The notes under the pieces are model-generated. The model made no database searches, was not told the DNA's origin, and was given only the letters and a program-made list of their open reading frames with translations. From the NCBI GenBank assembly GCA_903923905.1, contig CAIXZH010000004.1:1-64000 (forward strand): a DNA stretch of 64,000 nt. The letters run 5' to 3'. This document shows positions 7,220-64,000 of this stretch, piece by piece. How positions within the stretch are numbered: position 1 is the first letter of the stretch; the number at the start of each line of letters is the position of its first letter. Made by a program: the position numbers and the translations under genes. Source of the stretch: an uncultured Bacteroidia bacterium (GTDB lineage Bacteria; Bacteroidota; Bacteroidia; Bacteroidales; Prolixibacteraceae).

Positions 7220-8962
7220 ATGATGCAATTTAATGAAATGGGACTCGACCCCAGAATCCTAAAGGGGATTCAAGAAATGGGCTTCGAACAACCTTCGCCA
7301 ATCCAGGAACAGTTTATCCCCTTATTCCTGAAAAAACCCACAGACATTGTTGGACTAGCACAGACCGGAACCGGTAAAACCGCAGCTTTTGGTCTTCCCA
7401 TACTGCAGATTATCGATCCAAAAAACAGGGTTCCACAAGCTTTGATTATAAGCCCGACCCGTGAACTTTGTGTACAGATCTCCCGTGAAATTTCGGATTA
7501 CGCCAAGTACCTGCCCGATATTTCGATTGTCCCTATTTATGGAGGTGCCGACATCGGTGCACAGGTTAGTGCTTTACGTAAGGGTGTGCATATTATTGCA
7601 GCCACACCGGGTCGCCTGCATGATATGATCCGTAAAAATAAGGTCGATCTTTCGCAAGTGACTATATTGGTACTTGATGAAGCAGACGAAATGTTAAACA
7701 TGGGTTTTCAGGAAGATGTTGATGCAATCCTGGAAAAAACACCTGCGACAAAGAATACGCTTCTTTTTTCGGCAACAATGCCTAAGGAGATTGCTGCAAT
7801 CGCAAAAAATTATATGACCAATCCAATTGAAATCGCGGTTGGAAAGAAAGGGAGCGGTGCCGATAATGTAGAACATATCTACCATATGGTTCATGCAAAG
7901 GACCGCTATTCAGCACTTAAAAGGGTATTGGATTTCGTCCCTGAAGTTTATGGTATTGTTTTCTGCCGTACACGGATGGAAACCAATGAGGTTGCCTCCC
8001 AGCTGATTCAGGACGGGTATAGTGCAGAAGCACTTCACGGTGACCTGAGTCAGGCACAACGTGACTATGTGATGGAGAAATTCAGGACCAAAGGGGTGCA
8101 GATGCTTATCGCAACCGACGTGGCAGCGCGTGGACTTGACGTAAATGACCTGACCCATATTGTCAATTATAATTTACCTGACGATATCGAGAATTACACC
8201 CATCGTAGCGGCCGGACTGGTCGTGCTGGTAAATCAGGAATCTCTATCTCGATCATTCATATGAAAGAGCAAGGGAGAATCCGGATGATTGAAAAGGGGA
8301 TCGGAAAAAAATTCCTCCGGATGCCCGTTCCATCTGGTAAAGTGATCTGCGAAAAACAGTTAATGTATCTGATTGACAAACTTCAGACCGTTACAATTAA
8401 CGAGGATCAGATCGAACCATTCCTCCCTGCAGTCCATGAAAAACTGGAAGCGCTTACAAAAGAAGATCTGATTAAACATGTAGTTTCACTCGAGTTTAAC
8501 CGCTTTCTTGATTACTATGGGAATACACCCGATCTGAATGCTCCGGATGTGCATGATTCAGGAAGGAGAGATGTACGCGAAGGTCGCGAAATGCGCAGAA
8601 CCTCCTCCGAGGGGATGACCCAGATCAGACTGAATGTAGGATTATCGCAAGGACTAATTCCCAAGGATATTATCACTTTTGTTATTGATGCTACCGGTCG
8701 CAGAAATGTCGAAATCGGGAAAATCGATCTCTATAAGAACCATGCAACCGTTGAGGTTGAATCGGCTTATGGAACTACTTTACTGAAAAATAGCCGCGGT
8801 ATGAATTTCCGGGGATCGTTTTTCGATGCTGAGGTAAGCAGCAGTGGACGTGAAGGTGTAGACCGGGGAGGCGACAGAGGTGGTCGTTTTGAACGGGGTT
8901 TCCGCAAACCTGAAGGGGGAAGAGACGACTTTAAACGTCGTGACCGAAAGAAACGATTTTAA
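7220..8962 (+). CDS. DEAD-box ATP-dependent RNA helicase with DbpA-type RNA-binding domain
   Basis: An RNA helicase likely to act in ribosome assembly, RNA decay or cold adaptation. Motifs appear in order: Q-motif region (FEQPSPIQEQ), Walker A AQTGTGKT near residue 50, PTREL, the DEAD box VLDEADEML, SAT in LLFSATMP, and HRSGRTGRAG near residue 330. After the helicase core comes a DbpA/CsdA-like RNA-binding domain (about residues 470-540, containing GLIPKDIITFVID) and a basic Arg/Gly-rich tail of about 35 residues. At 580 residues it matches the DeaD/CsdA-like helicases common in Bacteroidota. Two adjacent ATGs (7220, 7223) make the exact start ambiguous by one codon. Confidence 0.92.
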   Translation: MMQFNEMGLDPRILKGIQEMGFEQPSPIQEQFIPLFLKKPTDIVGLAQTGTGKTAAFGLPILQIIDPKNRVPQALIISPTRELCVQISREISDYAKYLPDISIVPIYGGADIGAQVSALRKGVHIIAATPGRLHDMIRKNKVDLSQVTILVLDEADEMLNMGFQEDVDAILEKTPATKNTLLFSATMPKEIAAIAKNYMTNPIEIAVGKKGSGADNVEHIYHMVHAKDRYSALKRVLDFVPEVYGIVFCRTRMETNEVASQLIQDGYSAEALHGDLSQAQRDYVMEKFRTKGVQMLIATDVAARGLDVNDLTHIVNYNLPDDIENYTHRSGRTGRAGKSGISISIIHMKEQGRIRMIEKGIGKKFLRMPVPSGKVICEKQLMYLIDKLQTVTINEDQIEPFLPAVHEKLEALTKEDLIKHVVSLEFNRFLDYYGNTPDLNAPDVHDSGRRDVREGREMRRTSSEGMTQIRLNVGLSQGLIPKDIITFVIDATGRRNVEIGKIDLYKNHATVEVESAYGTTLLKNSRGMNFRGSFFDAEVSSSGREGVDRGGDRGGRFERGFRKPEGGRDDFKRRDRKKRF

Positions 8963-11708: not shown

Positions 11709-13670
11709 TTAAATATCCTTTCCCGGGATAGTAAAATAAAATGTACTCCCTTTCCCTTCCTGGCTCGTGACCCATAATTGTCCGCCATGTTTTTCAACAA
11801 AATCCTTGCAGATGATCAGTCCTAATCCGGTACTGGCTTCTCCTTCTGTCCCTTTACGGCTGGAACTGACGCCAACGGTGAAAAGTTTATCTATCATGGC
11901 ACTATTCATCCCAATACCTGTATCCTTAACCGATATTTCAATAAAGTTATCCTTCGATTTTATGGCCGAAATAGTTATTTTGCCACCTCTTCCGGTAAAT
12001 TTAACGCTATTCGAAAAAAGGTTCCGGAGAATCGTTTGAAGCATATTACTGTCTGCAAATACATCTAAATCACCGGATATCAGACATAAGACTTCAATTT
12101 TCTTAGTTTGGGCTGATGGCAATACCATGGCCAGGCTATCTGCGATAATGGGATTTAAATGGATTACCTCGGGATGAAATAAAATTCTGTTCTGTTGCAC
12201 AGAAGACCATTGCAACAGGTTCTCGAGTAATCGGTATAAGTTTGTTGCTGCGTCCCGCATGCTGACGGCCATTTTTTGAAGCTCATCCGGCGTTAAGGTG
12301 TCTGATTCTTCTGCCATTATATGTGTAAGTCCTAAAAACCCATTGAAAGGACTACGCAGATCATGTGCGATAATTGAGAAAAATTTGTCTTTCGACTCAT
12401 TCAGTCTTTGTAATTCCTCGTTTTTTCGCTTAATTTCTTCTTCTGCCAGTTTACGGTCGGTAATATCGCGACCGATTCCCAATAAACCGATAACCTGACC
12501 ATCTTTGTTGTACATTGGAATCTTAGACGAAAGCAGCCAGTGTTTTACTCCACCCAAATCAATCAATGATTCTTCGACATTGAATACAGCTTTGCCACTT
12601 TGCATTACTGCCTGGTCGAGGGCAACGAATTCCCGGGCAAGTTCCAGAGGATAAAAGGCAAAATCATCTTTCCCTATAACTTCACCTTCGGTTTTGGCCC
12701 CCATATACCAAAGATCTGTTAAGTTGGCAAGTGTTTTTCGGCAGGCCACATCCATACAATAGATCGAATCAGGAATATTGTCGATAATCATTCGAAGCAG
12801 TAATTTTTCTTCCATTAATGCGTCCTCGAATTTTTTCCGCTCAGAGATATCGCTTACACTGCCAATCAGGGCCATAGGCCTGTCATGATCATCCCATAAA
12901 ACATTAAACCGATCCTGGAGCCAGAGATATTGACCGTTTTTTTGTCTGAAACGATAATCAATCTGATTAACTTTCCGGGAGTGATCGGATAGAGCCATGG
13001 TTAGCAGGTGATCGGTTTTAGGAATATCCTCCTGATGGATTAACCCTTTAACGGTCTCAGGGGATAAAGTATCCATTTCGTAGGATGTGAAGCCCGTGAT
13101 CCGCTCAAATACCGGACTTAAATAATCGTATTTTTTGGTCAGTAAATTTCGTTTATAAGATGCATCCTGCGAATTCTCCAAAACCTCCCGGATACGTTCT
13201 TCACTCTCTTTATGTTTTAATGTTAAATTTCCGGCAATTTGTTGGGCCCTGAAACGGGTGTTGAACAACGACACAGAGAGTAAAAATATTAATAGACTGA
13301 TCAATATTCCGCTGACAGCGACAACTTTGACCAGATTTTGAAAAAAGGGAGTCTGACGGATCGGCTGGGTAAAAAGCAGGATCCATTTAATGTTGTAAGG
13401 GGATACTTTTAATGAAAGTGTTCTTGATGGAGAATTGTTGTCAATCAATGTACCATTGCCTTGACTATCATAAAGTAAGGAATGATTTGAAATATCCTGA
13501 TTATAAATTTGAAGACGTATTCTGTTTTTTTGTTCTGATTCCCACCGGCCTAAGATTCCAAGCATTAAATCGTTCAGGTAAAAAGGGCTGTAAACCCATC
13601 CTTTGATTGCAAGGCGACGCTGCCATAAAGTTTTGACCTCTAATCTTTTAGAATAAACCGGGGAATACAT
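11709..13670 (-). CDS. C-terminal part of a CHASE-PAS-PAS sensor histidine kinase (split gene)
   Basis: Residues 1-115 are the end of a periplasmic CHASE domain and are followed by a transmembrane helix (about 118-140). Two PAS/PAC domains follow (about 160-285 and 290-410). The HisKA domain has the H-box FFSIIAHDLRSPFNG (His near residue 436), and the HATPase_c domain shows ILRNLFSNSVKFT, KDTGIGMN and GLGLIICKDF. The first ATG follows directly on the in-frame TAA that ends the upstream CHASE piece. The expected protein would be continuous (KGI-stop-MYSPVY, where CHASE relatives read KG(F/I)LMY(L/S)PVY). Alone, this product lacks a normal N-terminal membrane anchor for its sensor domain. It may be expressed by reinitiation, by readthrough, or not at all. 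Confidence 0.8.
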   Translation of the reverse strand: MYSPVYSKRLEVKTLWQRRLAIKGWVYSPFYLNDLMLGILGRWESEQKNRIRLQIYNQDISNHSLLYDSQGNGTLIDNNSPSRTLSLKVSPYNIKWILLFTQPIRQTPFFQNLVKVVAVSGILISLLIFLLSVSLFNTRFRAQQIAGNLTLKHKESEERIREVLENSQDASYKRNLLTKKYDYLSPVFERITGFTSYEMDTLSPETVKGLIHQEDIPKTDHLLTMALSDHSRKVNQIDYRFRQKNGQYLWLQDRFNVLWDDHDRPMALIGSVSDISERKKFEDALMEEKLLLRMIIDNIPDSIYCMDVACRKTLANLTDLWYMGAKTEGEVIGKDDFAFYPLELAREFVALDQAVMQSGKAVFNVEESLIDLGGVKHWLLSSKIPMYNKDGQVIGLLGIGRDITDRKLAEEEIKRKNEELQRLNESKDKFFSIIAHDLRSPFNGFLGLTHIMAEESDTLTPDELQKMAVSMRDAATNLYRLLENLLQWSSVQQNRILFHPEVIHLNPIIADSLAMVLPSAQTKKIEVLCLISGDLDVFADSNMLQTILRNLFSNSVKFTGRGGKITISAIKSKDNFIEISVKDTGIGMNSAMIDKLFTVGVSSSRKGTEGEASTGLGLIICKDFVEKHGGQLWVTSQEGKGSTFYFTIPGKDI

Positions 13671-14303
13671 TTAAATTCCCTTACGTTGATCTTCAGGGCT
13701 GTTCTGTACCAGAGTTACTTTTCCGGTAAGTGTTACTGAGTCTGAATCGCGCGACACCTCCATTGCACTTCTGCGGGTAGAGTCTGAATACATATCATAG
13801 CCAAATGCGCGAAGGTTGGCGCCGGAAAATGGCTCAAGATAAATTATCGAAGTATAGACATCCCGGTTACCTGATGGTTTTACATCGTATCCGGCAAATC
13901 CTTCCCTTCGTATTTTTTGAATATGTTGTTGGATTTGATTTCCGGGGATAATAATCGAATAGCCGAGTCCTTTAATTCCCGGCAAATTCAGTTCATATTT
14001 AGATCGTTCAATGAATTTTTTCCAGGCTCCACGACTGACGGAATCTGAGGATTCAAAAAAAGCGGAGCCGGTCAATAAGAGTTGGGCAGTTGTCCGAAGC
14101 TTGTTGGCTGTCTTAATCTTAATCTCATTACAAGTTGAAGCAAATTCCCGTTTCGCATCTGCATTAACCTCATTTTGGGCATAATAGGTCGCTATCCCCG
14201 TCAAGATGAGTCCGAGTATTAAAATCACCAAACCCCATATTGCATTTTTCGTGGTTGTCTTTGGACGAAGAATTTTATACCTTTTACTGGTTAAATTCAC
14301 CAT
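13671..14303 (-). CDS. N-terminal CHASE-domain part of the same split sensor kinase
   Basis: A 210-residue product with a transmembrane segment at about residues 22-43 (AIWGLVILILGLILTGIA). Most of a CHASE extracellular ligand-binding domain follows (GIKGLGYSIIIPG; GFAGYDVKP; YLEPFSGANLRAFGYDM). It ends at TAA 13671-13673 in the middle of the CHASE C-terminal motif VTLVQ...KG(F/I)LMYxPVY. The next codon is the ATG of the downstream piece in the same frame, and one base change (TTA Leu to TAA) would explain the break. It overlaps the end of the hybrid kinase gene by 20 bases (14284-14303), which implies translational coupling. Cytokinin-like or other small ligands are known for CHASE domains; the ligand here is unknown. 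Confidence 0.8.
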   Translation of the reverse strand: MVNLTSKRYKILRPKTTTKNAIWGLVILILGLILTGIATYYAQNEVNADAKREFASTCNEIKIKTANKLRTTAQLLLTGSAFFESSDSVSRGAWKKFIERSKYELNLPGIKGLGYSIIIPGNQIQQHIQKIRREGFAGYDVKPSGNRDVYTSIIYLEPFSGANLRAFGYDMYSDSTRRSAMEVSRDSDSVTLTGKVTLVQNSPEDQRKGI

Positions 14304-16999: not shown

Positions 17000-17401
17000 T
17001 TAGGGAGAGTAAAATCTGAATGCTAAGTCACTTCTGCAAAAAAAAATGTACATTTTCTGCATTAAGTCGCCCAAAGGTCCCAAATTTATGTTTAAATCTC
17101 TGTCAGTCAGATTGAAATGCTTTTTTAATTCTTCCATTTTCAGTTCAAGGTTCATGAGGGTTTCGCCAAGTCGTTCAATTTCAGCATCAGTCAGCGATGC
17201 GCCATCAACCCTGCGCATAGCCTGTTTTTCGACCAGTTTTCGGATTAGCTCAACCAGAGTGAGCACCAATTTAGCCAGTCCGGAATCGGCATTGTCGGGA
17301 GTTAACTTAAGTCTCGATTCATCAACGTGAGTTAGATTCCCGATCTCCTGAGAAAACTCATCGAGTGATCCGGTATTAAAGAGTATTTTATTTTCACTCA
17401 T
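17000..17401 (-). CDS. gvpK: Gas vesicle protein GvpK
   Basis: GvpK is an accessory protein needed for gas vesicle assembly. The family signature is clear: GLAKLVLTLVELIRKLVEKQAMRRVDG, then LTDAEIERLGETLM and the C-terminal DLNINLGPLGDL. The last 20 residues after that signature (ending FRFYSP) are not typical, and they follow an A-rich tract at 17038-17047, so a small shift of the natural end is possible. It is the last gene of the gvp cluster in transcription order. Its ATG lies 97 bases after the present gvpL stop, but only 8 bases after the stop that gvpL would reach if its premature TAA were ignored. Confidence 0.88.
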   Translation of the reverse strand: MSENKILFNTGSLDEFSQEIGNLTHVDESRLKLTPDNADSGLAKLVLTLVELIRKLVEKQAMRRVDGASLTDAEIERLGETLMNLELKMEELKKHFNLTDRDLNINLGPLGDLMQKMYIFFCRSDLAFRFYSP

Positions 17402-17502
17402 GATTCGATTTACTTTATGGTGGTTTCAACAAAGTTATATGGAGGCCAGGGTCCTGTCAATACAAAATTTAGCCCAGGGAATTGTATTTGAAATTCTTCG
17501 AT

Positions 17503-17505
17503 TTA
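17503..17505 (-). other. In-frame premature TAA in gvpL
   Basis: On the minus strand the codons around it read CAT TAA ATC GAA GAA. The 30 codons that follow contain no further stop and end with the GPWPPYNF motif of the GvpL/F family. This is a nonsense substitution rather than a frameshift. Confidence 0.8.
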
Positions 17506-18174
17506 ATGAATTAAGGGATCTTTTAGACTTTTTCCCAGTAAAATAACAGCATCGATGATCATTGTTTCAGACCCCATTATTCTGAATTTGCTAACTGCAT
17601 TCAAATGGTCAAGATGTGCGGTTATCCTTGTTATCACTGAATCGACGTGGGATAACAGCATCTCTTTCAGTTTGTGTGCTTCCAGTTTTTTATTGACATA
17701 TTCTCTAAATACCGAAATTTGAGGGTCCGGAGTTTGAGGAATTAGGCGGGCTGTTTTTGCCTCAGATTTTCCGATGAGTTCTTCCTTTAATTTCTCGGAA
17801 TCGCAAAAAACCTTGAGCCCAAATTCAACCTTGTTTTGAAGATTCAGAAGATTTTTCTCAATTTCGGGATGGTTTCTTTCGAACATCCGGAGGATGTCAC
17901 CAGTTGATTCCATCATCGAACCAGACCGCATTGGTAACAGTGTAAAATATTGTGCAAGTGTTTCAATTACCCCGGCATAGGCAATTGCGTTGGAGCTATT
18001 GGCAATTAACTCAGTTCTGTTGATATCGGATGCGATCGCCGTAACTGTTTGAAAGGAAACCGGATATAAACCGGCACCGGAAATACCTTTTATTCCGGTC
18101 AACATCGAATCCAGCTCCCCGGAATCATTCTGTACAGATAATATGGCATAGATCAATAATTCCATTTCCTTCAT
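17503..18174 (-). CDS. gvpL: Gas vesicle protein GvpL/GvpF family, C-terminus cut by an in-frame stop
   Basis: The 223 residues match the GvpL/F family (N-terminal LLIYAILSVQ strand, a central AIAYAGVIETLAQYFTLLPMRSG segment, and a helical middle). The frame ends at TAA 17503-17505. The same frame then stays open to a TAA at 17410-17412 and encodes the diagnostic family ending LTGPWPPYNFVE. The ancestral gene therefore ran from 18174 to 17410 (257 codons), and the present one lacks the last 34 residues unless the TAA is read through. It overlaps the GvpJ/S-like gene by 4 bases (ATGA type), a sign of translational coupling. GvpL/F proteins act at the nucleation stage of vesicle assembly. Confidence 0.85.
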   Translation of the reverse strand: MKEMELLIYAILSVQNDSGELDSMLTGIKGISGAGLYPVSFQTVTAIASDINRTELIANSSNAIAYAGVIETLAQYFTLLPMRSGSMMESTGDILRMFERNHPEIEKNLLNLQNKVEFGLKVFCDSEKLKEELIGKSEAKTARLIPQTPDPQISVFREYVNKKLEAHKLKEMLLSHVDSVITRITAHLDHLNAVSKFRIMGSETMIIDAVILLGKSLKDPLIH

Positions 18175-18383
18175 TCTTTCATTTCCTTGATTGCCTTACC
18201 GCTTTTTAATTGTTCCATCGTTTCCACAGAGCTCAACATCCGTTTTACCCCTAAATAAACCAGATCAATATCTGCCACTGAAATGACGATATCCCCGGTA
18301 AGGATAACTCCTTTATTCAATACCCTGTCGAGCAGTTCAAGGATGGTAATATCTTTTGACTGATCAACAACATTATTATCCAT
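18171..18383 (-). CDS. Small GvpA-superfamily protein (GvpJ/GvpS type)
   Basis: A 70-residue protein of the GvpA/J/M/S superfamily: ITILELLDRVLNKGVILTGD, then ISVADIDLVYLGVKRMLSSVE. The alpha-beta-beta-alpha layout and length equal those of the shell protein GvpA. However, the TGDIVISVADIDLVYLG sequence is closer to the minor GvpJ/GvpS proteins than to GvpA (which has AWVRVSLVGIELL). It is the only member of this superfamily in the window, so it would have to serve as shell protein itself or work with a gvpA located elsewhere. It overlaps gvpL by 4 bases and follows the other gvpF/L gene by 2 bases. Confidence 0.8.
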   Translation of the reverse strand: MDNNVVDQSKDITILELLDRVLNKGVILTGDIVISVADIDLVYLGVKRMLSSVETMEQLKSGKAIKEMKE

Positions 18384-18385
18384 AT

Positions 18386-19177
18386 CTATTTTTCTTTTAT
18401 CGAAATAAAACTAAACGGTGGCCATGGTCCTGTTGCCTCTATCAAAAAACCAGAGGGGCCATCATTTTTTATCAAAGAGTCGCCAACTATTTTAAAATCA
18501 ACTACTTTATCTTTCCTGACTAAAATAGTGGCATTGAGGATCATGGTATCCTCCCGCCCGGTAAACTCTTTCGGCAGGAGATTATTCAGGCTGGTCGATT
18601 CACTCAGTCTACTAAATTTATCAAAATACTTTTGTCCATAATTCTTGCTTATCCGGTCCATTTCATTTTCAATCAGATTGGTTTTCTTCCTTTTTAAAAG
18701 GTAAGCTTTACCCGGCGAACTCTGCATGATCTGTTTTTCCAAAGCGGCTGCGTCCTCACTTAATTCATCAATTTGGTTACTCAGTATCTTGCGATCGCAA
18801 TATATTTTGACAGCCCATTCCTCTTTACCTCCGATGAGATTGAAATTTTCTGCCAGCGAACTGGAATAATCGGATATGAATTTTTTTAGACGTTCCTCTG
18901 CCAAAAAGATAGTCCCGAATTTAAACGGAATCACTGAAGCTTTTTCCATTATTCCATTGATTACCTCTACATGTTCCCGGGCGTTGGCTTCCAGCCAGGG
19001 CAGATCAGATAAATGCTTTTTGAAATTTTCCTCGGAGAAATCGTTTACTGAAACATTTCGGACCACTGCATAATAGTTATCAACAAGAACCGTTCTTAAT
19101 CCTTGAATATCTGTAATATGCATAATATCAGGTAATTTATTGACCAAGCAATAAACATAAATCAGTTCATTGTTCAT
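18386..19177 (-). CDS. Gas vesicle protein GvpF/GvpL family (intact paralogue)
   Basis: The 263 residues have the family start YVYCLVN, a central REHVEVINGIMEKASVIPFKFGTIF segment, a charged coiled-coil stretch (about residues 130-190) and the diagnostic ending ATGPWPPFSF. This copy is complete, in contrast to the gvpL gene two positions downstream. Two GvpF/L paralogues are usual in bacterial gvp clusters, where they help nucleate or cap the growing vesicle. It is separated from the GvpJ/S-like gene by 2 bases, so the operon organisation is tight. Whether it is closer to GvpF or GvpL cannot be decided by eye. Confidence 0.87.
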   Translation of the reverse strand: MNNELIYVYCLVNKLPDIMHITDIQGLRTVLVDNYYAVVRNVSVNDFSEENFKKHLSDLPWLEANAREHVEVINGIMEKASVIPFKFGTIFLAEERLKKFISDYSSSLAENFNLIGGKEEWAVKIYCDRKILSNQIDELSEDAAALEKQIMQSSPGKAYLLKRKKTNLIENEMDRISKNYGQKYFDKFSRLSESTSLNNLLPKEFTGREDTMILNATILVRKDKVVDFKIVGDSLIKNDGPSGFLIEATGPWPPFSFISIKEK

Positions 19178-19281
19178 TTGCTTCCGGTTTAAAGTAATTA
19201 CTCTGATGTGAAATCAATACCTTCAAAGGAGTTCATGCGTTCGAAGGCCGTAATTTCAAGATTATCATCCATCTTAATAGA

Positions 19282-19284
19282 CTA
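19282..19284 (-). other. In-frame premature TAG in the gvpO-like gene
   Basis: The minus-strand codons read CTC TTT TAG TCT ATT AAG ATG GAT. The frame after it remains open for 28 codons and matches the expected GvpO C-terminal pattern. Confidence 0.65.
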
Positions 19285-19470
19285 AAAGAGTCTGACTTGT
19301 TTGGGAGGGAGGTTCATCAATTTTAGAAATGAATCGTCTTCATACACCTCTGCCACAGCATTCCAGGTGTCCTGGACCTTCCTTATTTTTATAACCGTCA
19401 CATCGTAGCAGTTAATATTCTCTTTCAGAAACTTAACCTCCTCTTTTTTTACACTGATAATATTACTCAT
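19282..19470 (-). CDS. GvpO-like gas vesicle protein, cut by an in-frame TAG
   Basis: The 62 residues resemble the core of GvpO: VTVIKIRKVQDTWNAVAEVYE corresponds to the GWRV.VEVVE strand, and LPPKQVRLF follows. The frame is stopped by TAG 19282-19284, then continues open for 28 codons to TAA 19198-19200 and encodes SIKMDDNLEITAFERMNSF. That fits the normal GvpO ending, YEVDLDEDGDLVGYRR. The TAG falls where GvpO has the Tyr of YEVxLD, so one base change (TAT/TAC to TAG) explains it. The full-length version would end 20 bases before gvpF. The GvpO assignment is by pattern and context and is less certain than for the other gvp genes. Confidence 0.6.
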   Translation of the reverse strand: MSNIISVKKEEVKFLKENINCYDVTVIKIRKVQDTWNAVAEVYEDDSFLKLMNLPPKQVRLF

Positions 19471-19546
19471 CTTTTTTTCTTCTTTATTATTAGGGGTTTA
19501 GGCTTTTGTATGTCCTGATGGTCTTTGGTTCTCTTTATCAGGTTAT

Positions 19547-19783
19547 TTACTTATTCTGTTTCTCTTCCCGAATATTCTCCAGCAATTTTAACAATTCATC
19601 CTCCTTTTGATCGTATTCCTCTTCACTGATTTCATCCATCTCAAATTTCAGCTGTAAGGCCATTAACCGCTCCTTAATCGCCCCCTCATCTGACGTTTCT
19701 TTCATGATTACCTCATTTATTTTTTCTGCGATAAAAATGACCCCTTTCAGGGGAGCAAGAAGCAAATCATCGATTAAAAACAT
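19547..19783 (-). CDS. gvpG: Gas vesicle protein GvpG
   Basis: The 78 residues match GvpG, a small accessory protein of vesicle nucleation. The N-terminus FLIDDLLLAPLKGVIFIAEKI is the family signature, followed by a charged helical C-terminal half (LMALQLKFEMDEISEEEYDQKEDELLKLLE). It has normal length and is the first recognisable gvp gene in the transcription direction. AAAGGA lies 8-13 bases before the ATG, a better ribosome binding site than most genes here show. Upstream lies the remnant of a receiver-PAS gene, not gvpA or gvpN. Confidence 0.88.
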   Translation of the reverse strand: MFLIDDLLLAPLKGVIFIAEKINEVIMKETSDEGAIKERLMALQLKFEMDEISEEEYDQKEDELLKLLENIREEKQNK

Positions 19784-19865
19784 GATATATTCCTTTCGTA
19801 TTTATGACCAGATAAGGGCCTGAAAAGGAATTGTACATTAAAGATAGGTGATTAGCTACTGTAAA

Positions 19866-20642
19866 TCAGAGAAATACCCCCGGGGCACAAAAAAACAATT
19901 TGTACAAATCTTGATATTTACTTGAATTCACATTGAAGGAATAGACTTTATTGGCCATGATCTCTGAAAAGATATCCTCAGCCTTTCTCACCTCATCAGG
20001 TGACATGAAATCGAAAGGGGTTTTCCTATAATCTGCTCATGAGAAACACCAAGAAGCTCAGGACCTCTTTTTGAACTATAGGTATAGACTCCGTTCTCAT
20101 CCATTTCCCAGACCCAGTCTGCCATACTGAACATGATATCCCGTAGTCTCCCCTCGCTCTTTTTAAGGGCAGAATTGACCTTTTTTAACTCATCTGCCGA
20201 TTCTTTCAGTAATGCAGCATTCCTGATGACATTTTGCTTCTGATTGAACAGATCAAGGAATACATTGATTTTTGATAAAAGAATATGATTAACTTTGGGT
20301 TTTGAGAGATAATCAACAGCGCCTGAACTATAACCTTTAAACACTTCTGTTTCATTAATATTGCTGGCAGTCAGAAAAATAACCGGAACCTTGTCATCCG
20401 CTCTTTCCTCATTAAGCTTTTCAGCAAGCTCATAGCCATCCATCCCCCGGCATCCTGACATCGATGATTGCCAATGCAAGTTCAAGCTTTCTGGTTTTCA
20501 TAAGAGCCTGGTCACCTGATAAAGCTGTAATCAGATTCACTTTGAGTTTTTTGAGCATCACCTCAAGCAAAAACAGATTTTCCTCATGGTCGTCAACAAT
20601 CAAAAGGTTTGGTAGAGACTTTATTGGTATCTGATAAGTTAT
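19866..20642 (-). pseudogene. Decayed response-regulator receiver + PAS gene
   Basis: Translating across frames recovers a receiver (NLLIVDDHEENLFLLEVML, IIDVRMPGMDGYELAEKL, TAS, KP lysine), a linker helix and a PAS domain (DIMFSMADWVWEMDENGVYT, then GKTPFDFMSPDEVRKAEDIF). There are at least two indels: an extra G in a G5 run (20444-20448) just before MDGYEL, and a missing A in the A4 run (20021-20024) inside GKTPF. The frame upstream of LLIVDD reaches a stop with no ATG, and the PAS domain breaks off after about 30 more residues. One longer piece (20485-19988, 165 codons) stays open by itself but holds neither domain complete. It is co-directional with the gvp genes and just upstream of gvpG. 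Confidence 0.8.
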
Positions 20643-20888
20643 TTAGTTGAAAGAGAAGTACAAAATTGCACATTACGTCGTTATACACTCTATTCTTTTC
20701 AACATGACAGATTTTGGGTGTTCTGACGAATTAATAATGAGTTTCCGGAAACATTAGATACCATAGACCTATGCCTGAAATATCGTTAATTATGTCTGAT
20801 ATGCCTCGCAACAATCACGATAGACATTATAAAGTTAAAAAAAAGGCAGATTAATTCAAAAGAAATTATAAAATTTGTCAGTTCCGGT

Positions 20889-23345
20889 TTATCTGATTTG
20901 TGCACCAACTTCGCGCTCAAAGGCGTTGATCAGTCGACTCATTGTTTTTTCTATTTGCTTGTCATTCAGTGTTTTTTCATCATCCTGCAGCGTAAAGCTT
21001 ACCGCGTATGATTTTTTTCCCTCCGGAAGATTTGCTCCCTGGTAAACATCAAAAATATTAACATTACGCAGTATTTGTCTTTCAGTTTTAAATGCAAGCG
21101 TCTTGATGACACTGAAAGGGACATCCTTGTCGATAAGCAACGCAAGATCCCGTTTTACTTCAGGGTATTTCTGAAGCGGGGAGTAGGAGACCCTGTGATT
21201 CTTAATGGCCTTTAAAATGGCACTCCAACGGAGATTCCCAAAGAACACATCTGATTGAATATCATTGTTTCTGAGAATATTAGAATTTAAATAGCCAATT
21301 TGCCCGATTGAAATTTGGTTAAAGCGGTATTCCAAACCTTCAGAAAAAATGTCATTTGAGATCGATTCGATGGAACAACCCACAGGATCAATCCCCAGCC
21401 TTGAAAGGATATTATCTACATTAGCCTTTAAGGTAAAAAAGGAGGTTGGTTCATCTTTGATATTCCAGTTTCCAGTCTCTTTATTGCCGGTAATCCAGAT
21501 TCCAATGTGTTCCTCTTCGCTGTAATTCCTGACCGGTTTCTCATACAACTTACTGCCATCGAAGCGATACACATTTCCGAATTCATAAAGGCGAAGGTTT
21601 GGGTTACGAAAGTTCGTATTGCGATTGACCGCTTCAAGTCCTCCAAAAAGAAGTGTCTGTCGCATTCCATTAAGATCGGAACTGAGCGGATTGAAAAGGC
21701 GGACTGTATTTTCAGCTTTAAACGATGCCAGGTGATCGTAATAAGCCGACTTTGTCAACGAATTGGACATGATTTCATTAAATCCCCTTGCGGTAAATAT
21801 TTCAGAAATCAGGTTTTGCAACTTCATTTTATCGGGATGAGGAACATGCTGAATCGTCGACTTGATTAAACTGTTCGGTTCAATATGGTTGTATCCATAA
21901 ATCCGAAGGATCTCCTCAATAATATCCACCTCCCTCTTAACGTCAACCCGATAAGGTGGCACTGCCAGAATCAACCCCTGATCAGACTCTTCCATGATCA
22001 CTATTTCAAGAGAACGTAGAATGCCTTTAATGGTCTCTTTTGTAAGATCTTTTCCGATAAGCCGACTGATGTTTGACCAGCAAATCTCCACGGGGAAGAA
22101 TTCAAGGATTGAAGGATCTGCAATTACGTCAACGATATCTGAAGAGATACCTCCTCCGGCAATCTCTTTGATTAACAATGCGGCACGTTTCAATGCATAG
22201 ATAGTTCCATTCGGATCGACACCCCGTTCAAAACGGAAGGATGCATCGGTATTGAGGCCATGCCGACGGGCTGTTTTACGGATGTAAACCGGATTAAAAA
22301 AGGCACTCTCCAGAAAAATAGAAGTAGTGTTTTCCTTAACGCCGGAATGCAAACCTCCAAAGACGCCTCCGATGCACATCGCCTCATCGGCATTACAAAT
22401 CATCAGGTCTTTATCCGACAACTCCCGTTCAATGCCATCGAGTGTGATAAATTTAGTGCCGGCTGTTTGAGTTTTCACGATCACCTGATCCCCTTTGACA
22501 GCAGCGGCATCAAAGGCATGAAGCGGTTGACCCGTTTCGTGCAGTACAAAGTTTGTGATATCAACGATATTATTAATCGGATTTTGACCTATTGCCTTTA
22601 GCCTGTTTTGGAGCCAATCCGGAGAGGGAGCAACGGTAACCCCGGAAATGGTTAAACCACTGTATCTTGGGCATGCTTCAGGATTTAAAATGGTAACTGA
22701 GATTGGAAGATTATGATTGTCAGGTTTGAATGCATCAATGTTGGGCCGGTGATATTGGATGTTCTTTTTTTGACTCAGAAATGCAGACAGATCGCGGGCT
22801 ACACCAATATGCGAAGCACTGTCGATACGATTGGGGGTAAGATCAACCTCAAGGACAAAATCGTTCTGAATATTAAAGAAATCACTCGCAGGGGTCCCGG
22901 GTTTTGCCTCCTGTTTTAAAACCATTATCCCGTTATGGTCATGACCGACACCAATTTCATCTTCGGCACAAATCATTCCCATCGATATCTCGCCCCTTAT
23001 TTTCGATTTCTGGATCGTGAATTTTTCATCTCCATTAAACAGAACTGTTCCGACAGTAGCGACAATAACCTTTTGACCGGCAGCGACATTGGGTGCTCCG
23101 CATACGATAGGTAAGTCTTCCTCACCACCAACATTCACAGTCGTCACACTTAAATGGTCTGAATTCGGATGTTTATGGCAGGAAATAACTTCACCAACCA
23201 CGAGTCCTTTGAGCCCACCCTTTATCGATTCAAATTCGTCGATGCTTCCGGTTTCAAGTCCAAGTTGGGTTAAGGTAGCCGCAATTTCAGCGGGTGAGAG
23301 TTCCGGATTGATATATTCTTTGAGCCAGTTATATGAGATATTCAT
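20889..23345 (-). CDS. pheT: Phenylalanine--tRNA ligase beta subunit
   Basis: PheT partners with PheS to charge tRNA-Phe. The 818 residues show the bacterial beta-subunit layout. First comes the N-terminal tRNA-binding OB domain (GLVVGEVISCHKHPNSDHL, around 45-150), then the B3/B4 editing region with FVLHETGQPLHAFDA and FRFERGVDPNGT. The B5 domain and catalytic-like core follow (KREVDIIEEILRIYGY), and a C-terminal ferredoxin-fold anticodon-binding domain closes the protein (YPEVKRDLALLIDKDV). The start MNISYNWLKEYI is typical. pheS is not in the window, so the subunit genes are unlinked here. The gene follows a TAnnTTTG box at 23377-23384. Confidence 0.96.
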   Translation of the reverse strand: MNISYNWLKEYINPELSPAEIAATLTQLGLETGSIDEFESIKGGLKGLVVGEVISCHKHPNSDHLSVTTVNVGGEEDLPIVCGAPNVAAGQKVIVATVGTVLFNGDEKFTIQKSKIRGEISMGMICAEDEIGVGHDHNGIMVLKQEAKPGTPASDFFNIQNDFVLEVDLTPNRIDSASHIGVARDLSAFLSQKKNIQYHRPNIDAFKPDNHNLPISVTILNPEACPRYSGLTISGVTVAPSPDWLQNRLKAIGQNPINNIVDITNFVLHETGQPLHAFDAAAVKGDQVIVKTQTAGTKFITLDGIERELSDKDLMICNADEAMCIGGVFGGLHSGVKENTTSIFLESAFFNPVYIRKTARRHGLNTDASFRFERGVDPNGTIYALKRAALLIKEIAGGGISSDIVDVIADPSILEFFPVEICWSNISRLIGKDLTKETIKGILRSLEIVIMEESDQGLILAVPPYRVDVKREVDIIEEILRIYGYNHIEPNSLIKSTIQHVPHPDKMKLQNLISEIFTARGFNEIMSNSLTKSAYYDHLASFKAENTVRLFNPLSSDLNGMRQTLLFGGLEAVNRNTNFRNPNLRLYEFGNVYRFDGSKLYEKPVRNYSEEEHIGIWITGNKETGNWNIKDEPTSFFTLKANVDNILSRLGIDPVGCSIESISNDIFSEGLEYRFNQISIGQIGYLNSNILRNNDIQSDVFFGNLRWSAILKAIKNHRVSYSPLQKYPEVKRDLALLIDKDVPFSVIKTLAFKTERQILRNVNIFDVYQGANLPEGKKSYAVSFTLQDDEKTLNDKQIEKTMSRLINAFEREVGAQIR

Positions 23346-57209: not shown

Positions 57210-59270
57210 TTACTTTTCTATGGTAATTCGTGCATCCACCGCGACAATCTTATCTCCTTTTCCGATCAATGGATTGATATCCATTTCTTTAATCTCTGTT
57301 GCAAACCTCAGCATCGAGGATAATCGCACGATAATTTCTGCAAATTTTTCGCGGTTGACTCCCGGTTTACCTCTTAACCCTTTTATAATCGGGTAAGCTT
57401 TCAAATTACGGATCATTGAAATTGCTTCGTCGAATGTTAGCGGTGCTAGTCCGGAGGTAAAATCCCTCAGCACTTCAACGAAGATTCCCCCGATTCCGCA
57501 TAGAATGACGTGCCCAAATTTGGGCTCATATTTTGCCCCCAGGAACAGCTCAGTCCCTTCAGCCTGTTCAGCAATTAAAACGGCTGTTGTCCCGTCAATA
57601 TCCATCATCCGGTTGAATTCAAGTCGCACAGACTCCTCTGAACGAATATTTAGTGACACTCCACCGACATCGGTTTTATGAATCGGTCCCACTACTTTCA
57701 TCACAACCGGATATCCAATCTCACGTGCTGCTTTAAGTGCTTCATCACTTGTGTTTGTAACTATTTCATTTACAAACGGAATTGATGCTGCACTAAACAA
57801 GGCATGTATTTTTTCAGGGGGTAATTGTCCGGTTTCACAGCTTTCAATAATTCGCCTGATCCTGGGAACATCCACCCCTTCAAGCATGATATTCTCATCG
57901 GATGGAGCAGGAGTGCGGTATACCCGTGTCAAAGCCCTGCCGAGAAGTACCTCATCCGGAAAGTTAATATTCCCGTGAGACAAGAAATAGGCCAGATCCT
58001 TTTTTACATTCAGAACTGATGGGAGGATGGGAAATATTGGTTTTTTGCAGCTCTTCATTTTAAAGTCAAGAACTTTATAAACATCCTTGACAGAGGTTAA
58101 TCCGGGACTCCCAAAGATAACCGCCATTCCATCGATCTCCTTAAAATCATTTTCGCAGGCATCAATGATCTCACCCAGTTGTTCTGCAGTTCCGGTAGCC
58201 AGAAAATCGATGGGATTCTCAACCGAGGAGCCGGCAAATAATTTCGATTTCAATGAATTTTTGGCCAATGAATCTGACAGTTGGGGAATGGTCAATCCAC
58301 CGGCTTCAAGCGCGTCGGTCAGCATCACAGCTGGCCCTCCGGCATGAGTGATAATGGCCATATTTTTACCTTCAAGTTTTTTGGTCATTAAAATTCCTGC
58401 AACAGTGGTTAATTCTTCCCGACCGTAACACCTCACAATGCCTGCTTTTCGGAAAAGTGCCTCTACCGCCGAATCCGAGCTGGCCATTGCACCCGTATGT
58501 GAGGATGCGGCCCTGCTTCCCGCCGAAGAACTTCCCGCTTTGATTGCCGCCAGTCTGAACCCTTTATTCACCAGTGAACGTGCATGGTGTAGGAATTTAT
58601 CCGGGTTGTTTATTGATTCAATATAAAGTAATTTTACCCGCATCTGGCTCTCCTCCTCTGCGTGCAGATCCCAGTATTCCATTACCTCTTCAATGCCGAT
58701 CTGGACCGAATTACCGACTGAAATGACCCGTGAGAAATGAACTCCCTTGGGGATCGCAGATTCAATAATAAAGACGGCAGTTGCCCCGGAACCGGACACA
58801 AAATCGCAGCCATCTGACCGGAGATGTGGTATGGGGGTTGTGAAAACTCCGGCATATTCCGGAGTCAATACTCCGATGCAATTGGGCCCTATCAGGCAGC
58901 CACCAGTTTGATTAATCACCGAAGTCATCCTTTCTTCAAGAAGTTTTCCTGATGGACCAGTCTCACTGAACCCCCCTGAGATCACGATAAATGCCCGAAC
59001 ATTTTTCTTTATGGCCAGAAATTCAATGATTTCAATACAACTTTTTGCCGGAATAGCAAGGATCGCCAGATCGGTTTCAGGCAGATCATCCAGAATATTA
59101 TAAGTGCTAATACCTTGAATATCTGTACTATTTTGGTTGAAGGCACGAAGTTCGCCCTGGAATTCATGTTCCAGAAGATTTTTGAGGATCTTACCTCCAG
59201 GTTTGGTTATATCGTTGGAAGCTCCAACGACCACTATGCTTTTGGGAGCCAGTAATTGCCTGTTTATCAT
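57210..59270 (-). CDS. Acetate--CoA ligase, ADP-forming (fused alpha and beta)
   Basis: 686 residues. The N-terminal CoA-binding domain has the motif VVVGASNDITKPGGKILKN. The succinyl-CoA-ligase-like domain carries the catalytic His of SHTGAMASSD near residue 258. The C-terminal ATP-grasp domain (about 470-686) contains EIGYPVVMKVVGPIHKTDVGG and MDINPLIG. Such enzymes make ATP from acyl-CoA during fermentation or run in reverse. The fused single-chain form is frequent in anaerobic bacteria. No acetate kinase or phosphotransacetylase genes are nearby. Confidence 0.92.
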   Translation of the reverse strand: MINRQLLAPKSIVVVGASNDITKPGGKILKNLLEHEFQGELRAFNQNSTDIQGISTYNILDDLPETDLAILAIPAKSCIEIIEFLAIKKNVRAFIVISGGFSETGPSGKLLEERMTSVINQTGGCLIGPNCIGVLTPEYAGVFTTPIPHLRSDGCDFVSGSGATAVFIIESAIPKGVHFSRVISVGNSVQIGIEEVMEYWDLHAEEESQMRVKLLYIESINNPDKFLHHARSLVNKGFRLAAIKAGSSSAGSRAASSHTGAMASSDSAVEALFRKAGIVRCYGREELTTVAGILMTKKLEGKNMAIITHAGGPAVMLTDALEAGGLTIPQLSDSLAKNSLKSKLFAGSSVENPIDFLATGTAEQLGEIIDACENDFKEIDGMAVIFGSPGLTSVKDVYKVLDFKMKSCKKPIFPILPSVLNVKKDLAYFLSHGNINFPDEVLLGRALTRVYRTPAPSDENIMLEGVDVPRIRRIIESCETGQLPPEKIHALFSAASIPFVNEIVTNTSDEALKAAREIGYPVVMKVVGPIHKTDVGGVSLNIRSEESVRLEFNRMMDIDGTTAVLIAEQAEGTELFLGAKYEPKFGHVILCGIGGIFVEVLRDFTSGLAPLTFDEAISMIRNLKAYPIIKGLRGKPGVNREKFAEIIVRLSSMLRFATEIKEMDINPLIGKGDKIVAVDARITIEK

Positions 59271-59567
59271 GATCTTCTGTATGGTTGGTTATTTTACTCA
59301 AACATACACGAAAATCAGACAAATGCAAATGAGAATAATCACTGCAATAATCCTGAATTGGAAATCAATAAATTTGAATTCCAATTCAGCCTGAATCTAG
59401 CTGCTGGCTACGTGCTGCTGGTAACTGGCTGATGAATTATTAATTAGAAAAGAAGATCTTCCGGGCGCCAGTTGCCAATTGCCAGTCGCACAATTTGTCA
59501 ATAATTCCTGAACGACTCAATTATCGTGTTTGTCAGTTTCATATCTTTAATTTCCTAATTTTGGGAG

Positions 59568-60380
59568 ATGGAAAACGGAGAACAAAAAATTTTTGTCTGG
59601 TGTGATTTTTCGGATGGAATGGATGATGCCATTTTACATGGGATCATGATTGCTTCAACGCTCGGTAAGGAGCTGTGTCTTTTCCATTTACTTGACTTCC
59701 GGCTTCACGAGAATAGTGAGATTGCGGAAGCTCGGTTAAGAGGAACGACCACTAAAATATCAAATTTCCTTTCTGCCATCCGTGTCCGTTATTTGGTTCA
59801 TAATCAGGACCTCATTAAGAGTTTGAACGAACTTGCCGAGCTTTACGAATGTCTGGTTTTGGTGGCGCACAAAAAATCAGCCTCTTTTCTTTTGCCGGTT
59901 TTGCAATATGCTGCATTCCCGTTTCTGTTTGTATCGGCAAAAACAAATCTGGATCAGATTTACAAGCAGATTGTTGTCCCGGTAGGTTATATGAAGAAGA
60001 GCAAAGATCTGGCTTTGTGGGCGAGCTATCTTGGCCGTCATAATAACGCAGGAATCAACCTTTATATGTCGGATGAAGGTTGGAGCGAGGATCAGAAGAC
60101 GGTAAAAAACAACCTTTTTTCCATCCAGCGGTTTTATGGGAAATTCAGGTTCCCTGTTCAGGTCATTGAGAGTCACACCCCGACCTGGAAGCTTCAGAAG
60201 TCCGCACTGGGACATGCGTTGAGTCTTAAATTCGCGATGTTGATCATTGCGGGGAGTTTTAAAACGACCTTTCTGGATTCATTTCTGGGCCTGACAGAGG
60301 ATAAAGTGATTGCGAAATCGGAGGATTTATCGGTGATGTGCGTGAACTCGCGACGTGACTTTTATACCTTTTGCAGCTAG
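59568..60380 (+). CDS. Universal-stress-protein-like protein
   Basis: 270 residues with two USP-like halves: an N-terminal half with a hydrophobic strand and DFSDGMDDAILHGIMIASTLG, then a second from IVVPVGYMKKSKDLALWASYLG. The ATP-binding G-x2-G-x9-G(S/T) motif of canonical UspA is not visible, so this looks like a degenerate, non-nucleotide-binding member. The start ATG 59568 fits. The function is unknown. It stands alone between the divergent CoA ligase and the nuo operon. Confidence 0.6.
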   Translation: MENGEQKIFVWCDFSDGMDDAILHGIMIASTLGKELCLFHLLDFRLHENSEIAEARLRGTTTKISNFLSAIRVRYLVHNQDLIKSLNELAELYECLVLVAHKKSASFLLPVLQYAAFPFLFVSAKTNLDQIYKQIVVPVGYMKKSKDLALWASYLGRHNNAGINLYMSDEGWSEDQKTVKNNLFSIQRFYGKFRFPVQVIESHTPTWKLQKSALGHALSLKFAMLIIAGSFKTTFLDSFLGLTEDKVIAKSEDLSVMCVNSRRDFYTFCS

Positions 60381-60540
60381 ATTTTATAGCTCTAAATAGC
60401 CTTAATTTAGTGTTCTGGTATCCTATTTTAAAGAACTGCAATGTCCACATGACAAATTTATATTGAATATAAATAGAGGCATTTGGCTCGATTTTGGCCA
60501 CAAATTTGAAGAAATGAGAAGTCTGAATTATTTAAAGTGA

Positions 60541-60548
60541 TACATTTG
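60541..60548 (+). promoter_or_regulatory. Candidate -7 box of the nuo operon
   Basis: TACATTTG is a full TAnnTTTG match, 70 bases before nuoA. No TTTG at the -33 distance. Confidence 0.35.
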
Positions 60549-60618
60549 CCACTTCATTTCCAAGATATAAACGTTTAATTTTATTTAGAAACTACTCAAT
60601 TAGTTTAATAATTATAAT

Positions 60619-60969
60619 ATGGAAAGTAGCGCACTTTTAGTCTTTTTTCTGGCCGCAGTATCCCTTGTAGGATTAGCGATGCTTTTTTCCAGTTATGTCC
60701 CCCCAACATCTTCGAACGATGTAAAATTTGAGCCTTATGAGTGCGGGATTGAAACGATAGGTGATGCCTGGCTTCAGTACACGGTAGGTTATTATTTGTT
60801 CGCAATACTTTTTCTCATTTTTGATGTGGAGACAATATTCTTGTTTCCATGGGCAATTGTAATGAGAACTGCCGGTTTGACCGGATTTGTTGAGATTCTG
60901 ATTTTCTTTGCGATTTTGGGATTAGGGTTGTTGTATGGATGGAAAAAACATGCGTTAAAATGGGAATAA
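60619..60969 (+). CDS. nuoA: NADH-quinone oxidoreductase subunit A
   Basis: Membrane subunit of complex I. The 116 residues have three helices and the conserved EPYECGIE motif in the loop after the first one, then the [19 protein letters not shown] helix. The length is normal. nuoB starts inside its last codons, so translation is coupled. It heads the nuo operon. Confidence 0.95.
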
Positions 60970-61532
60970 ATAAAAAAAGCGATTTCGAAAAAAATGACTA
61001 CCCGATTATCGCTGAATACGAAGGTGGAGGTATTATGCTGGCACAGCTGGATGCACTGGTCAACTGGTCACGTGCCAATTCACTCTGGCCTTTAACTTTT
61101 GGTACACGGTGTTGTGCAATCGAATTTATGGCTGCAGGAGCTTCACGACACGATTTTGCACGGTTTGGAGCTGAGGTTGCCAGGCCTTCACCGCGGCAGG
61201 CCGATTTGATTGTCATTTCAGGGACCATCAATTACAAAATGGCTCCGGTTCTAAAACGGTTATATGATCAGATGCCTGAACCAAAATATGTGATGGCAAT
61301 GGGTGCCTGCGCTGTTTCCGGCGGACCATTCTATTATAATTCATACGCTATCGTAAAAGGGGCTGATCACGTGATTCCGGTGGATGTTTATATCCCGGGT
61401 TGTCCGCCAAGACCCGAAGCTTTCCTCTTTGGACTCATGCAGTTACAGAAGAAAATTAAACGTACGAAAAATTTTGGCAAGGTCAAGTATCTCGAAGCAA
61501 AGCCAATAATTTCTAATAAATCTTCTATTTAA
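60960..61532 (+). CDS. nuoB: NADH-quinone oxidoreductase subunit B
   Basis: Carries the N2 4Fe-4S cluster next to the quinone site. The 190 residues show [13 protein letters not shown] (two adjacent cluster cysteines), [15 protein letters not shown] and [10 protein letters not shown] with the remaining ones. ATG 60960 overlaps the end of nuoA by 10 bases and is preferred over an in-frame ATG 21 bases earlier. The operon order A-B-C-D follows the usual plan. Confidence 0.95.
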
Positions 61533-61544
61533 ATATTAGGTTAA

Positions 61545-62000
61545 ATGACTAAAGAGGAATTAATATCATACTTAACCGGGAATTTTCCTGAGGCAGAGGT
61601 AAAATCCGGGGCTCAATATGCAGAGATGACAGTAAAAGCATCGGATCTTCATGAAACGGCCGTTCAGCTGAAAGATACTGCAGAGCTTTCATTTGATTAT
61701 GTGTTCTGCCTGACCGGAGTAGATTATGCTGAAAACATGGGGATAATCTATCACATTGAATCAGTGGAGCACCGCCATACCATCGTGCTTAAAGTGAGGA
61801 CAGCTGACCGGTTAAATCCTGTGATTGATACAGTCAGTGATGTTTGGATTACAGCAAAATATCATGAGCGTGAGGCCTATGATCTGCTTGGAATTCATTT
61901 CAACAACCATACCGATTTACGCCGCCTTTTTCTCGAGGATGGCTGGGGATTTCCCCTTAGAAAGGATTATGTGGACGAAATACGAATAGTAGAACGATAG
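61545..62000 (+). CDS. nuoC: NADH-quinone oxidoreductase subunit C
   Basis: A hydrophilic complex I subunit of the Q module. The 151 residues contain the 30-kDa signature EREAYDLLGIHFNNHTDLRRLF followed by GFPLRKDYV. In many bacteria nuoC and nuoD are fused (nuoCD); here they are separate, with nuoD starting 5 bases after the stop. Confidence 0.94.
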   Translation: MTKEELISYLTGNFPEAEVKSGAQYAEMTVKASDLHETAVQLKDTAELSFDYVFCLTGVDYAENMGIIYHIESVEHRHTIVLKVRTADRLNPVIDTVSDVWITAKYHEREAYDLLGIHFNNHTDLRRLFLEDGWGFPLRKDYVDEIRIVER

Positions 62001-62004
62001 AATT

Positions 62005-63138
62005 ATGTCCGAAATAAGAGAGGTCATTATAAAAACCGACAAGCTTGCTACCGATAAGTATCAGGTAAATATGGGTCCGCAGCACCCTTCGACTCATGGA
62101 GTGTTACGTTTGCTTGTCACACTTGAGGGTGAGAAGGTTCTAAATGTTCAGCCACATTCAGGCTATATCCACAGTGGAATTGAAAAGATGTGTGAGGCAA
62201 TAAGTTATCCGCAGATCATTCATCTCACAGACCGTATGGATTACCTGTCTGCCCACATGAATAATGAGGCAGTTGCCTTGTGTGTTGAAAACGCTCTTCA
62301 GGTTGAAGTCCCCGATCGTGTAAAATATATTCGTACCATAATGGACGAATTAGCCCGTCTTGCTTCCCATCAATTATGGTGGTGCGTTTTCGGAATGGAT
62401 TTGGGTGCTCTTACAACTTTCTTCTATGGTCTGCGTGATCGTGAACATATCCTCGATATCTTTGAGGAGACCTGTGGCGCCAGAATGACTGTGAGTTACA
62501 GTACTCCCGGCGGACTGATGTTCGATATTCATCCGAATTTCCAAAAGCGGGTTAAAGATTTCATTAAATACTTTAGAACCAAACTTCCCGAATACGATAA
62601 GTTGCTTTCGGGAAATGTAATTTTAAGGGAACGTACCGAAGGAATTGGTCACCTCTCCTATAAAGATGCAATTGATTTTGGAGTTACCGGACCTTCAGGA
62701 AGAGCTTCGGGCTTTTCGTGTGATGTCCGTAAACATAATCCTTACAGCGCCTATCCATTCGTGAAGTTCAATGAGATTCTTGATCACCGGTGTGACACCC
62801 TTGCACGGTATGAGGTTCGTATTTTGGAGATGTATGAGTCTTTAAATATTATCGAACAGCTCATTGATAATATCCCTGAAGGTGATTATGCAGTTAAAAT
62901 GAAGGGGGTATTGAAACTTCCGGAAGGTGAGTTCTACCAGCGGGTTGAGACTGCAAGAGGTGAATTCGGGGTATTTATTGTGAGTGACGGTAAGAAGAAT
63001 CCATACCGGGTTAAATTTCGCTCTCCAGGTTTTTCAAATCTATTTGCCCTTAACAATATGACAAAAGGCCATAAAATCGCTGACCTTGTTGCAATTATGT
63101 CTACCCTTGACCTGATCATTCCGGATATCGACCGTTAA
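62005..63138 (+). CDS. nuoD: NADH-quinone oxidoreductase subunit D
   Basis: The 49-kDa-type subunit forming the quinone-binding cavity with NuoB. The 377 residues start with the MGPQHPSTHGVLRLL motif (quinone-site His region), then HSGIEKMCE, and end in the family tail IMSTLDLIIPDIDR. It is the standard length for a separate NuoD. It is followed after about 40 bases by nuoH, with no nuoE, nuoF or nuoG between. Confidence 0.95.
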   Translation: MSEIREVIIKTDKLATDKYQVNMGPQHPSTHGVLRLLVTLEGEKVLNVQPHSGYIHSGIEKMCEAISYPQIIHLTDRMDYLSAHMNNEAVALCVENALQVEVPDRVKYIRTIMDELARLASHQLWWCVFGMDLGALTTFFYGLRDREHILDIFEETCGARMTVSYSTPGGLMFDIHPNFQKRVKDFIKYFRTKLPEYDKLLSGNVILRERTEGIGHLSYKDAIDFGVTGPSGRASGFSCDVRKHNPYSAYPFVKFNEILDHRCDTLARYEVRILEMYESLNIIEQLIDNIPEGDYAVKMKGVLKLPEGEFYQRVETARGEFGVFIVSDGKKNPYRVKFRSPGFSNLFALNNMTKGHKIADLVAIMSTLDLIIPDIDR

Positions 63139-63179
63139 TAACATTGAAAATTAACACTGACGCTTAAGATATTTTCTAT

Positions 63180-64000
63180 ATGGATATTTACAACTTTACA
63201 ACGTTAACCCACAACATTCACACGGGTTTAGCTCAAAGTTTCGCACCCTGGCTTGCCACAACCATTGAGTGGGTAATCGTAGGGGTTGCATACCTTTTAT
63301 TTGTTGCACTTTTTGGATTGTTTCTGGTTTATGCCGAGCGGAAGGTTTGTGCGGCATTTCAGCAGCGATTGGGCCCAATGCGGGTAGGGAAGTGGGGATT
63401 ACTTCAGACAATCGCTGACTTCATAAAGCTGTTGATGAAAGAGCTGATCATGCCCCGCAAGGCCGATTGGTTCCTTTATAACCTGGCACCATTTATCGTT
63501 ATTATTGCCTCGTTTCTTGCTATTGCTGCTCTCCCTTTTGCACCGGGGCTTCAGTCAATGGATTTTGACATCGGTGTTTTTTACCTGACCGCTGTTTCCT
63601 CGGTAGGCGTTATCGGGATACTTCTGGCAGGCTGGTCAAGTAACAACAAATATTCGCTGATTGGCGCTATGCGTAGTGGGGCACAGATCTTAAGTTACGA
63701 ACTATCTGTTTCCCTTTCACTTTTAACAATGGTAGTATTTGCCGGAACGATGCAGTTCTCTGCCATTGTAGAGGGGCAACGCGACGCCTGGTTTATCTTT
63801 TCAGGCCATATTCCTGCTATTATCGCATTTGTCGTTTTCCTCATTGCAGGGACAGCCGAAACAAACCGTGGTCCGTTCGACCTTGCTGAGGCTGAATCTG
63901 AACTGGTAGCCGGTTTTCACACCGAGTATTCGGGAATTAAATTTGCGATGTTCTTTCTTGCTGAATACATCAATCTGTTTATTATCTCGGCAGTGGCTGC
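63180..64000 (+). CDS. nuoH: NADH-quinone oxidoreductase subunit H (partial, cut by the window end)
   Basis: From ATG 63180 the frame is open to the end of the window (273 complete codons) and encodes the start of NuoH: helix [19 protein letters not shown], then [20 protein letters not shown], and later [23 protein letters not shown]. These are the conserved loops near the quinone tunnel. About 70 further residues would be expected beyond the window. It directly follows nuoD, so the operon lacks the E, F and G genes at the place where other bacteria carry them. Confidence 0.93.

Follow-up and report, generated by a model that had tools for sequence, protein, structure and literature searches.

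An internally stopped gvpL in a truncated gas-vesicle cluster of a Bacteroidia bacterium, probably inactivated recently

The gene gvpL on the minus strand of the window (the whole stretch of 64,000 nucleotides that was analysed) raises the question of whether its internal stop codon marks a dead gene or a protein that is made in a short and a long form. The frame starting at 18174 is ended by a TAA at 17505-17503; the next 30 codons, IEEFQIQFPGLNFVLTGPWPPYNFVETTIK, stay open up to a second TAA at 17412-17410, and the open frame beyond the stop ends in LTGPWPPYNFVETTIK. The ending GPWPP(Y/F)xF, stated in the initial annotation to be the hallmark of the family, thus lies outside the reading frame of gvpL, and it is complete in the upstream paralogue gvpF (18386-19177), which ends in GPWPPFSFISIKEK. 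A frame read through the first stop would end 8 bases before the gvpK start at 17401, the same gap as in the relative L049, where the gvpL stop ends at 8756 and gvpK begins at 8765. The open frame was confirmed by translation, and the complete ending of the paralogue and the operon-like spacing, also claimed initially, were found as described. The proposal built on them, that either one base change had freshly inactivated the gene or the stop is read through, held in part: inactivation is well supported by several local lesions, and neither the single base change nor the pair of protein forms is. The features are collected in Table 1.

Table 1. Gas-vesicle genes and neighbouring features of the window
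Feature	Position	Strand	Basis
gvpL up to premature TAA (17503-17505), 223 aa	17503-18174	minus	PF06386, 87.7 bits
gvpL tail past the stop, 30 codons and TAA, with GPWPPYNF	17410-17502	minus	Frame translation, orthologue alignment
gvpO up to premature TAG (19282-19284), 62 aa	19282-19470	minus	Named by relatives
gvpO tail past the stop, 27 codons and TAA	19198-19281	minus	Comparison with relatives
gvpK, 133 aa, stop lost; 19 residues (17000-17059) beyond the usual family end	17000-17401	minus	PF05121, 112.6 bits; ends of relatives
gvpJ-type gene, 70 aa, open	18171-18383	minus	PF00741, 53.5 bits
gvpF, 263 aa, open, ending complete	18386-19177	minus	PF06386, 161.8 bits
gvpG, 78 aa, open	19547-19783	minus	PF05120, 70.6 bits
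Eight codons LVINTKGI, putative leftover of the gvpL/F end that precedes gvpG in relatives	19788-19811	minus	G061 has LVINTKGV
Response-regulator gene, two frames, split near 20436-20446	20153-20639	minus	Related to the regulator heading the G061 cluster
CHASE histidine kinase, in-frame TAA at 13671-13673	11709-14303	minus	Neighbour of the gvp remnant

The stopped gene shares with the GvpL/GvpF family (PF06386, accessory gas vesicle protein GvpL) its Pfam match, its place between gvpJ and gvpK, which is that of gvpL in relatives, and the ending preserved in the DNA. It differs from the family in the position of this ending beyond a stop codon, and in that gvpA and gvpN were not found in the assembly. 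Up to the stop, the product scores 87.7 bits and reaches position 211 of the 245 in the profile; with X at the stop, the frame scores 129.3 bits and reaches position 245 of 245, both scores being above the curated cut-off of 23.6 bits. The tail is identical to that of L049 at 22 of 30 residues and to that of L040 at 23 of 30. The gain in score and coverage, together with these identities, shows that the tail is more than a chance open frame.

Relatives were searched for in 61 genomes (9 with a match), in 18 congeneric genomes (3 matching at 1e-15), the window genome being counted in both cases, and in the GTDB contig collection (12 loci). The alignment comprises sixteen gvpL orthologues that reach an identity of at least 35%. 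It does not include L048 (28.7%), itself a full-length gvpL ending in GPWPPFNF, the paralogues L045, L046 and L047 (25-27%), or L041, which belongs to a second, partial cluster in G015. In all 16 orthologues the protein continues through the position of the window stop, and the ending is in frame, as GPWPPY in 15 and as GQWPPYNF in L050. A GvpL naturally ending at this point in close relatives, raised initially as a reason to doubt inactivation, was found in none of the 16; the short frame of G066 is due to the end of its contig, the match ending at 3659 on a contig of 3664 bases. Internal stops occur in none of 109 PF06386 matches in 20 other genomes, at least three of the 109 being truncated by the ends of their contigs (G066:C66, G015:C374, G068:C21) and another, in G024, starting at profile position 99, versus one of the two matches in the window genome. 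The absence of the disruption from the orthologues (0 of 16) is, as judged from sequence, that of a pseudogene.

The residue at the stop column is Ala, Val, Met, Asn or Ile in the orthologues. In the 14 listed relatives it is encoded by GCA, GTA, GCG, GTG, ATG, AAT or ATA, each at least two substitutions away from TAA. The stop would therefore not be a single recent change from any sampled state, and it is on this point that the proposed one-base inactivation fails.

The stop in gvpL is accompanied by other lesions. The gene gvpO, three genes upstream, has its TAG at a column that is Tyr in all 14 aligned relatives, and the frame past it matches the relatives up to residue 90; its Pfam score is just 13.5 bits, below the GvpO cut-off of 25. 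The stop that follows ...LM in gvpK of all 14 relatives printed is lost in the window. The broken response regulator is the sole domain among the 76 PF00072 rows of the genome to be seen as two adjoining half-matches. The kinase with the TAA is the second histidine kinase downstream of gvpK, and its stop falls within the CHASE domain; the other CHASE gene is open. Weighing against inactivation, three genes, gvpG, gvpF and gvpJ, remain open and show good conservation.

It is very unlikely that the gvpL stop is a sequencing or assembly error in an otherwise intact gene. The genome is indeed a draft of 119 contigs, and the frame change of the regulator near 20440 adjoins a G homopolymer, a setting prone to single-base errors. 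However, the gvpL codon differs by at least two bases from that of each listed relative, and gvpO and gvpK bear further substitutions, so that a single error would be insufficient. None of the 127 response-regulator and ABC matches in the assembly (76 and 51, respectively) has an internal stop, and base errors do not account for the half of the cluster that is missing.

The extent of this loss can be described by comparison with G061 (L049/L105, contig JAPLDT010000037.1, a Bacteroidia MAG), in which the order gvpG-O-F-J-L-K is the same as in the window, with protein identities of 57-95%. Unlike the window, G061 has regulators, gvpA, gvpN, three more gvpL/F genes and a full gvpL, and its cluster is at another chromosomal site. 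The order in G061 is regulator, NtrC-like regulator, gvpA, two longer genes, gvpN, gvpS/J, Hsp20-like, ArsA-like and AAA genes, three gvpL/F, and then gvpG-O-F-J-L-K; family searches located the PF00741 and PF06386 members, and the other names are those we take from our own reading of the sequences. The cluster is flanked by nuo-like genes and by a gene matching the window at 57210-59270. In the window these flanking genes (L106, L107) are neighbours, at 57210-63998, about 37 kb from the gvp remnant. As the two flanks adjoin each other there, the cluster occupies different sites in the two genomes.

Only one PF00741 (Gas_vesicle) match, the gvpJ-type gene, is present in the window genome versus 2-7 in each of the 20 compared genomes (two each in G065 and G070), and PF06386 matches number 2 versus 3-10. 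No gvpN above the cut-off was found in the window genome assembly; 13 matches lie below the cut-off, and such matches also occur in all 14 control genomes. Thus gvpA and gvpN, the pair expected in a genome with a functional gas-vesicle cluster, were not found in this draft, which is 97.77% complete. The remnant is at 17-20 kb on a contig of 134,736 bases, well inside it, so the gap is not explained by a contig end. In the draft of G063, short gvpA pieces sit at contig ends, showing that gvpA can be missed in drafts.

In all 19 relative loci having gvpG, a gvpL/F match ends 20 bases ahead of it. The eight codons preceding gvpG in the window match the C-terminal end of the third G061 gvpL/F at 7 of 8 residues, and the stretch was also seen in the DNA comparison beside four relatives. 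As its E value by itself is 0.24, its reading as a leftover is drawn from its place and orientation. The two pieces of the broken regulator are 66% and 76% identical to the regulator that opens the G061 cluster. The window regulator no longer matches the latter past its residue 203, and L053 has a similar regulator downstream of gvpK, making the outer end of the deletion, where the loss began, uncertain. Other than the eight codons and the regulator, the search for remnants of the missing genes from gvpG to 20900 gave just chance-level matches. The gene at 20889-23345 is presumably pheT, from our reading of its sequence.

These observations make it highly probable that what remains here is a gas-vesicle cluster truncated by deletion and inactivated recently. 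The ancestor would have had a complete cluster like that of G061. One deletion would have removed the region that reaches from the regulator through the third gvpL/F, which in G061 measures about 14.5 kb by our arithmetic. With gvpA and gvpN gone, no normal gas vesicle would be expected, so that the genes left behind would no longer be under selection, and the nonsense codons in gvpO and gvpL and the stop loss in gvpK would then be tolerated.

The stopped GvpL is not expected to work. In the AlphaFold2 model of the intact L049 orthologue (alignment of 13 rows, mean pLDDT 83.2), the last helix spans residues 212-228 and the last strand residues 232-240. The stop column corresponds, by our count, to residue 221 and is therefore inside the last helix, so that the last strand and the conserved end would be lost. 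According to the available text, the GvpL of Halobacterium salinarum bound every other accessory Gvp protein (PMC7688916), and the list of essential proteins in that species, again from the available text, comprises GvpF, G, J, K, L and O (PMC9501494). By sequence, no convincing solved structure was found for GvpL; GvpF gave weak matches to 6l5d and 4qsg, both titled 'gas vesicle protein'.

Readthrough of the TAA, and likewise of the TAG in gvpO, into a short and a long GvpL is extremely unlikely. Both the gvpL and the gvpO tail are conserved and show no excess of nonsynonymous change: the nonsynonymous to synonymous counts (N:S) are, in small numbers, 6:4 in the gvpL tail versus 63:36 in the body, and 2:2 versus 7:11 in gvpO. 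Tails that evolve like the bodies mean either that the decay is recent or that the tails are still used. However, the stop itself is not conserved among relatives, being present in none of the 16 orthologues, the two stop codons differ, and gvpA and gvpN are absent from the assembly. No suppressor anticodon is found in the 40 typed of 42 tRNA matches (two were left untyped by ARAGORN), a list that is incomplete, Ile and Asp tRNAs being missing from it. Together with the stop-free response-regulator and ABC matches, these tRNAs give no support to a genome-wide reassignment or suppression of stop codons either. An RNA element after the gvpL stop was also considered, and the fold test gave nothing notable: the RNA is not unusually folded (z -0.90), 38 of 200 shuffles folding at least as well. 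Rfam had no match at gathering score within 17000-21000.

Another explanation is that gvpG-O-F-J-L-K has been kept for a role other than buoyancy, in which short GvpL and GvpO suffice. Four of the six genes are open across the full family length, and N:S shows no clear increase on the window branch. The counts there are 154:151 versus 95:113 on the L049 branch (p = 0.32), and three other settings gave p = 0.37, 0.41 and, with L040 as sister, 0.045; the contrast is thus not significant in three settings of four and marginal in one, so relaxed selection is not clearly shown, a point against the inactivation reading. In the joined protein tree the window branch measures 0.27 versus 0.14 for L049. 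Among the columns of the six genes that are invariant in the 14 others, the window departs from five, the gvpO stop accounting for one of them, and L049 from four in a comparable count. Synonymous distances are often above 1 or not computable. Against a retained role, the missing stretches of GvpO and GvpL show conservation across the aligned relatives, neighbouring non-gvp genes are broken as well, and no relative with the same gvpG-O-F-J-L-K remnant was found in the 61 genomes, the 18 of the genus or the GTDB contig collection. Such a role is exceedingly improbable, and the broader form of the idea, selection of the gvpA-less remnant for a non-buoyancy role with GvpO and GvpL either shortened or partly read through, is highly improbable as well. 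Decay that is recent relative to the split from L049 is the simplest reading of these comparisons.

In three other loci, L045, L046 and L047 (of G010, G002 and G024), gvpG-O-F was seen and no adjoining gvpJ-L-K was found. Their GvpF proteins end in GPCPPFSF, GPDPPLSF and CPWPPYDF, and that of G024 is without about 98 N-terminal residues. These loci may have been remodelled, or may be decaying, independently within the same genus and family.

A literature search (not by organism name) did not name the window locus. The closest natural parallel described is that of Anabaena sp. 90, in which, according to the available text of PMC3542288, buoyancy was lost through a truncated gvpG. Both cases have a broken accessory gvp gene within a recognisable cluster. 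As far as that text goes, seven gvpA genes persist in the Anabaena sp. 90 cluster and buoyancy was lost at the time of laboratory culture, whereas the window lacks the front half of the cluster and has lesions in several genes.

The gvpL stop is one of several breaks in a half-lost cluster, which argues for a gene that died recently rather than one that is specially read through; gvpL looks like a young pseudogene. The locus captures a bacterium at what seems to be a short time after the loss of buoyancy: the front of the cluster is gone, and its rear half can still be read and carries new stop codons. It serves as an example of operon decay. A conserved motif past a stop codon is the usual mark of a young pseudogene and is not by itself evidence of readthrough.
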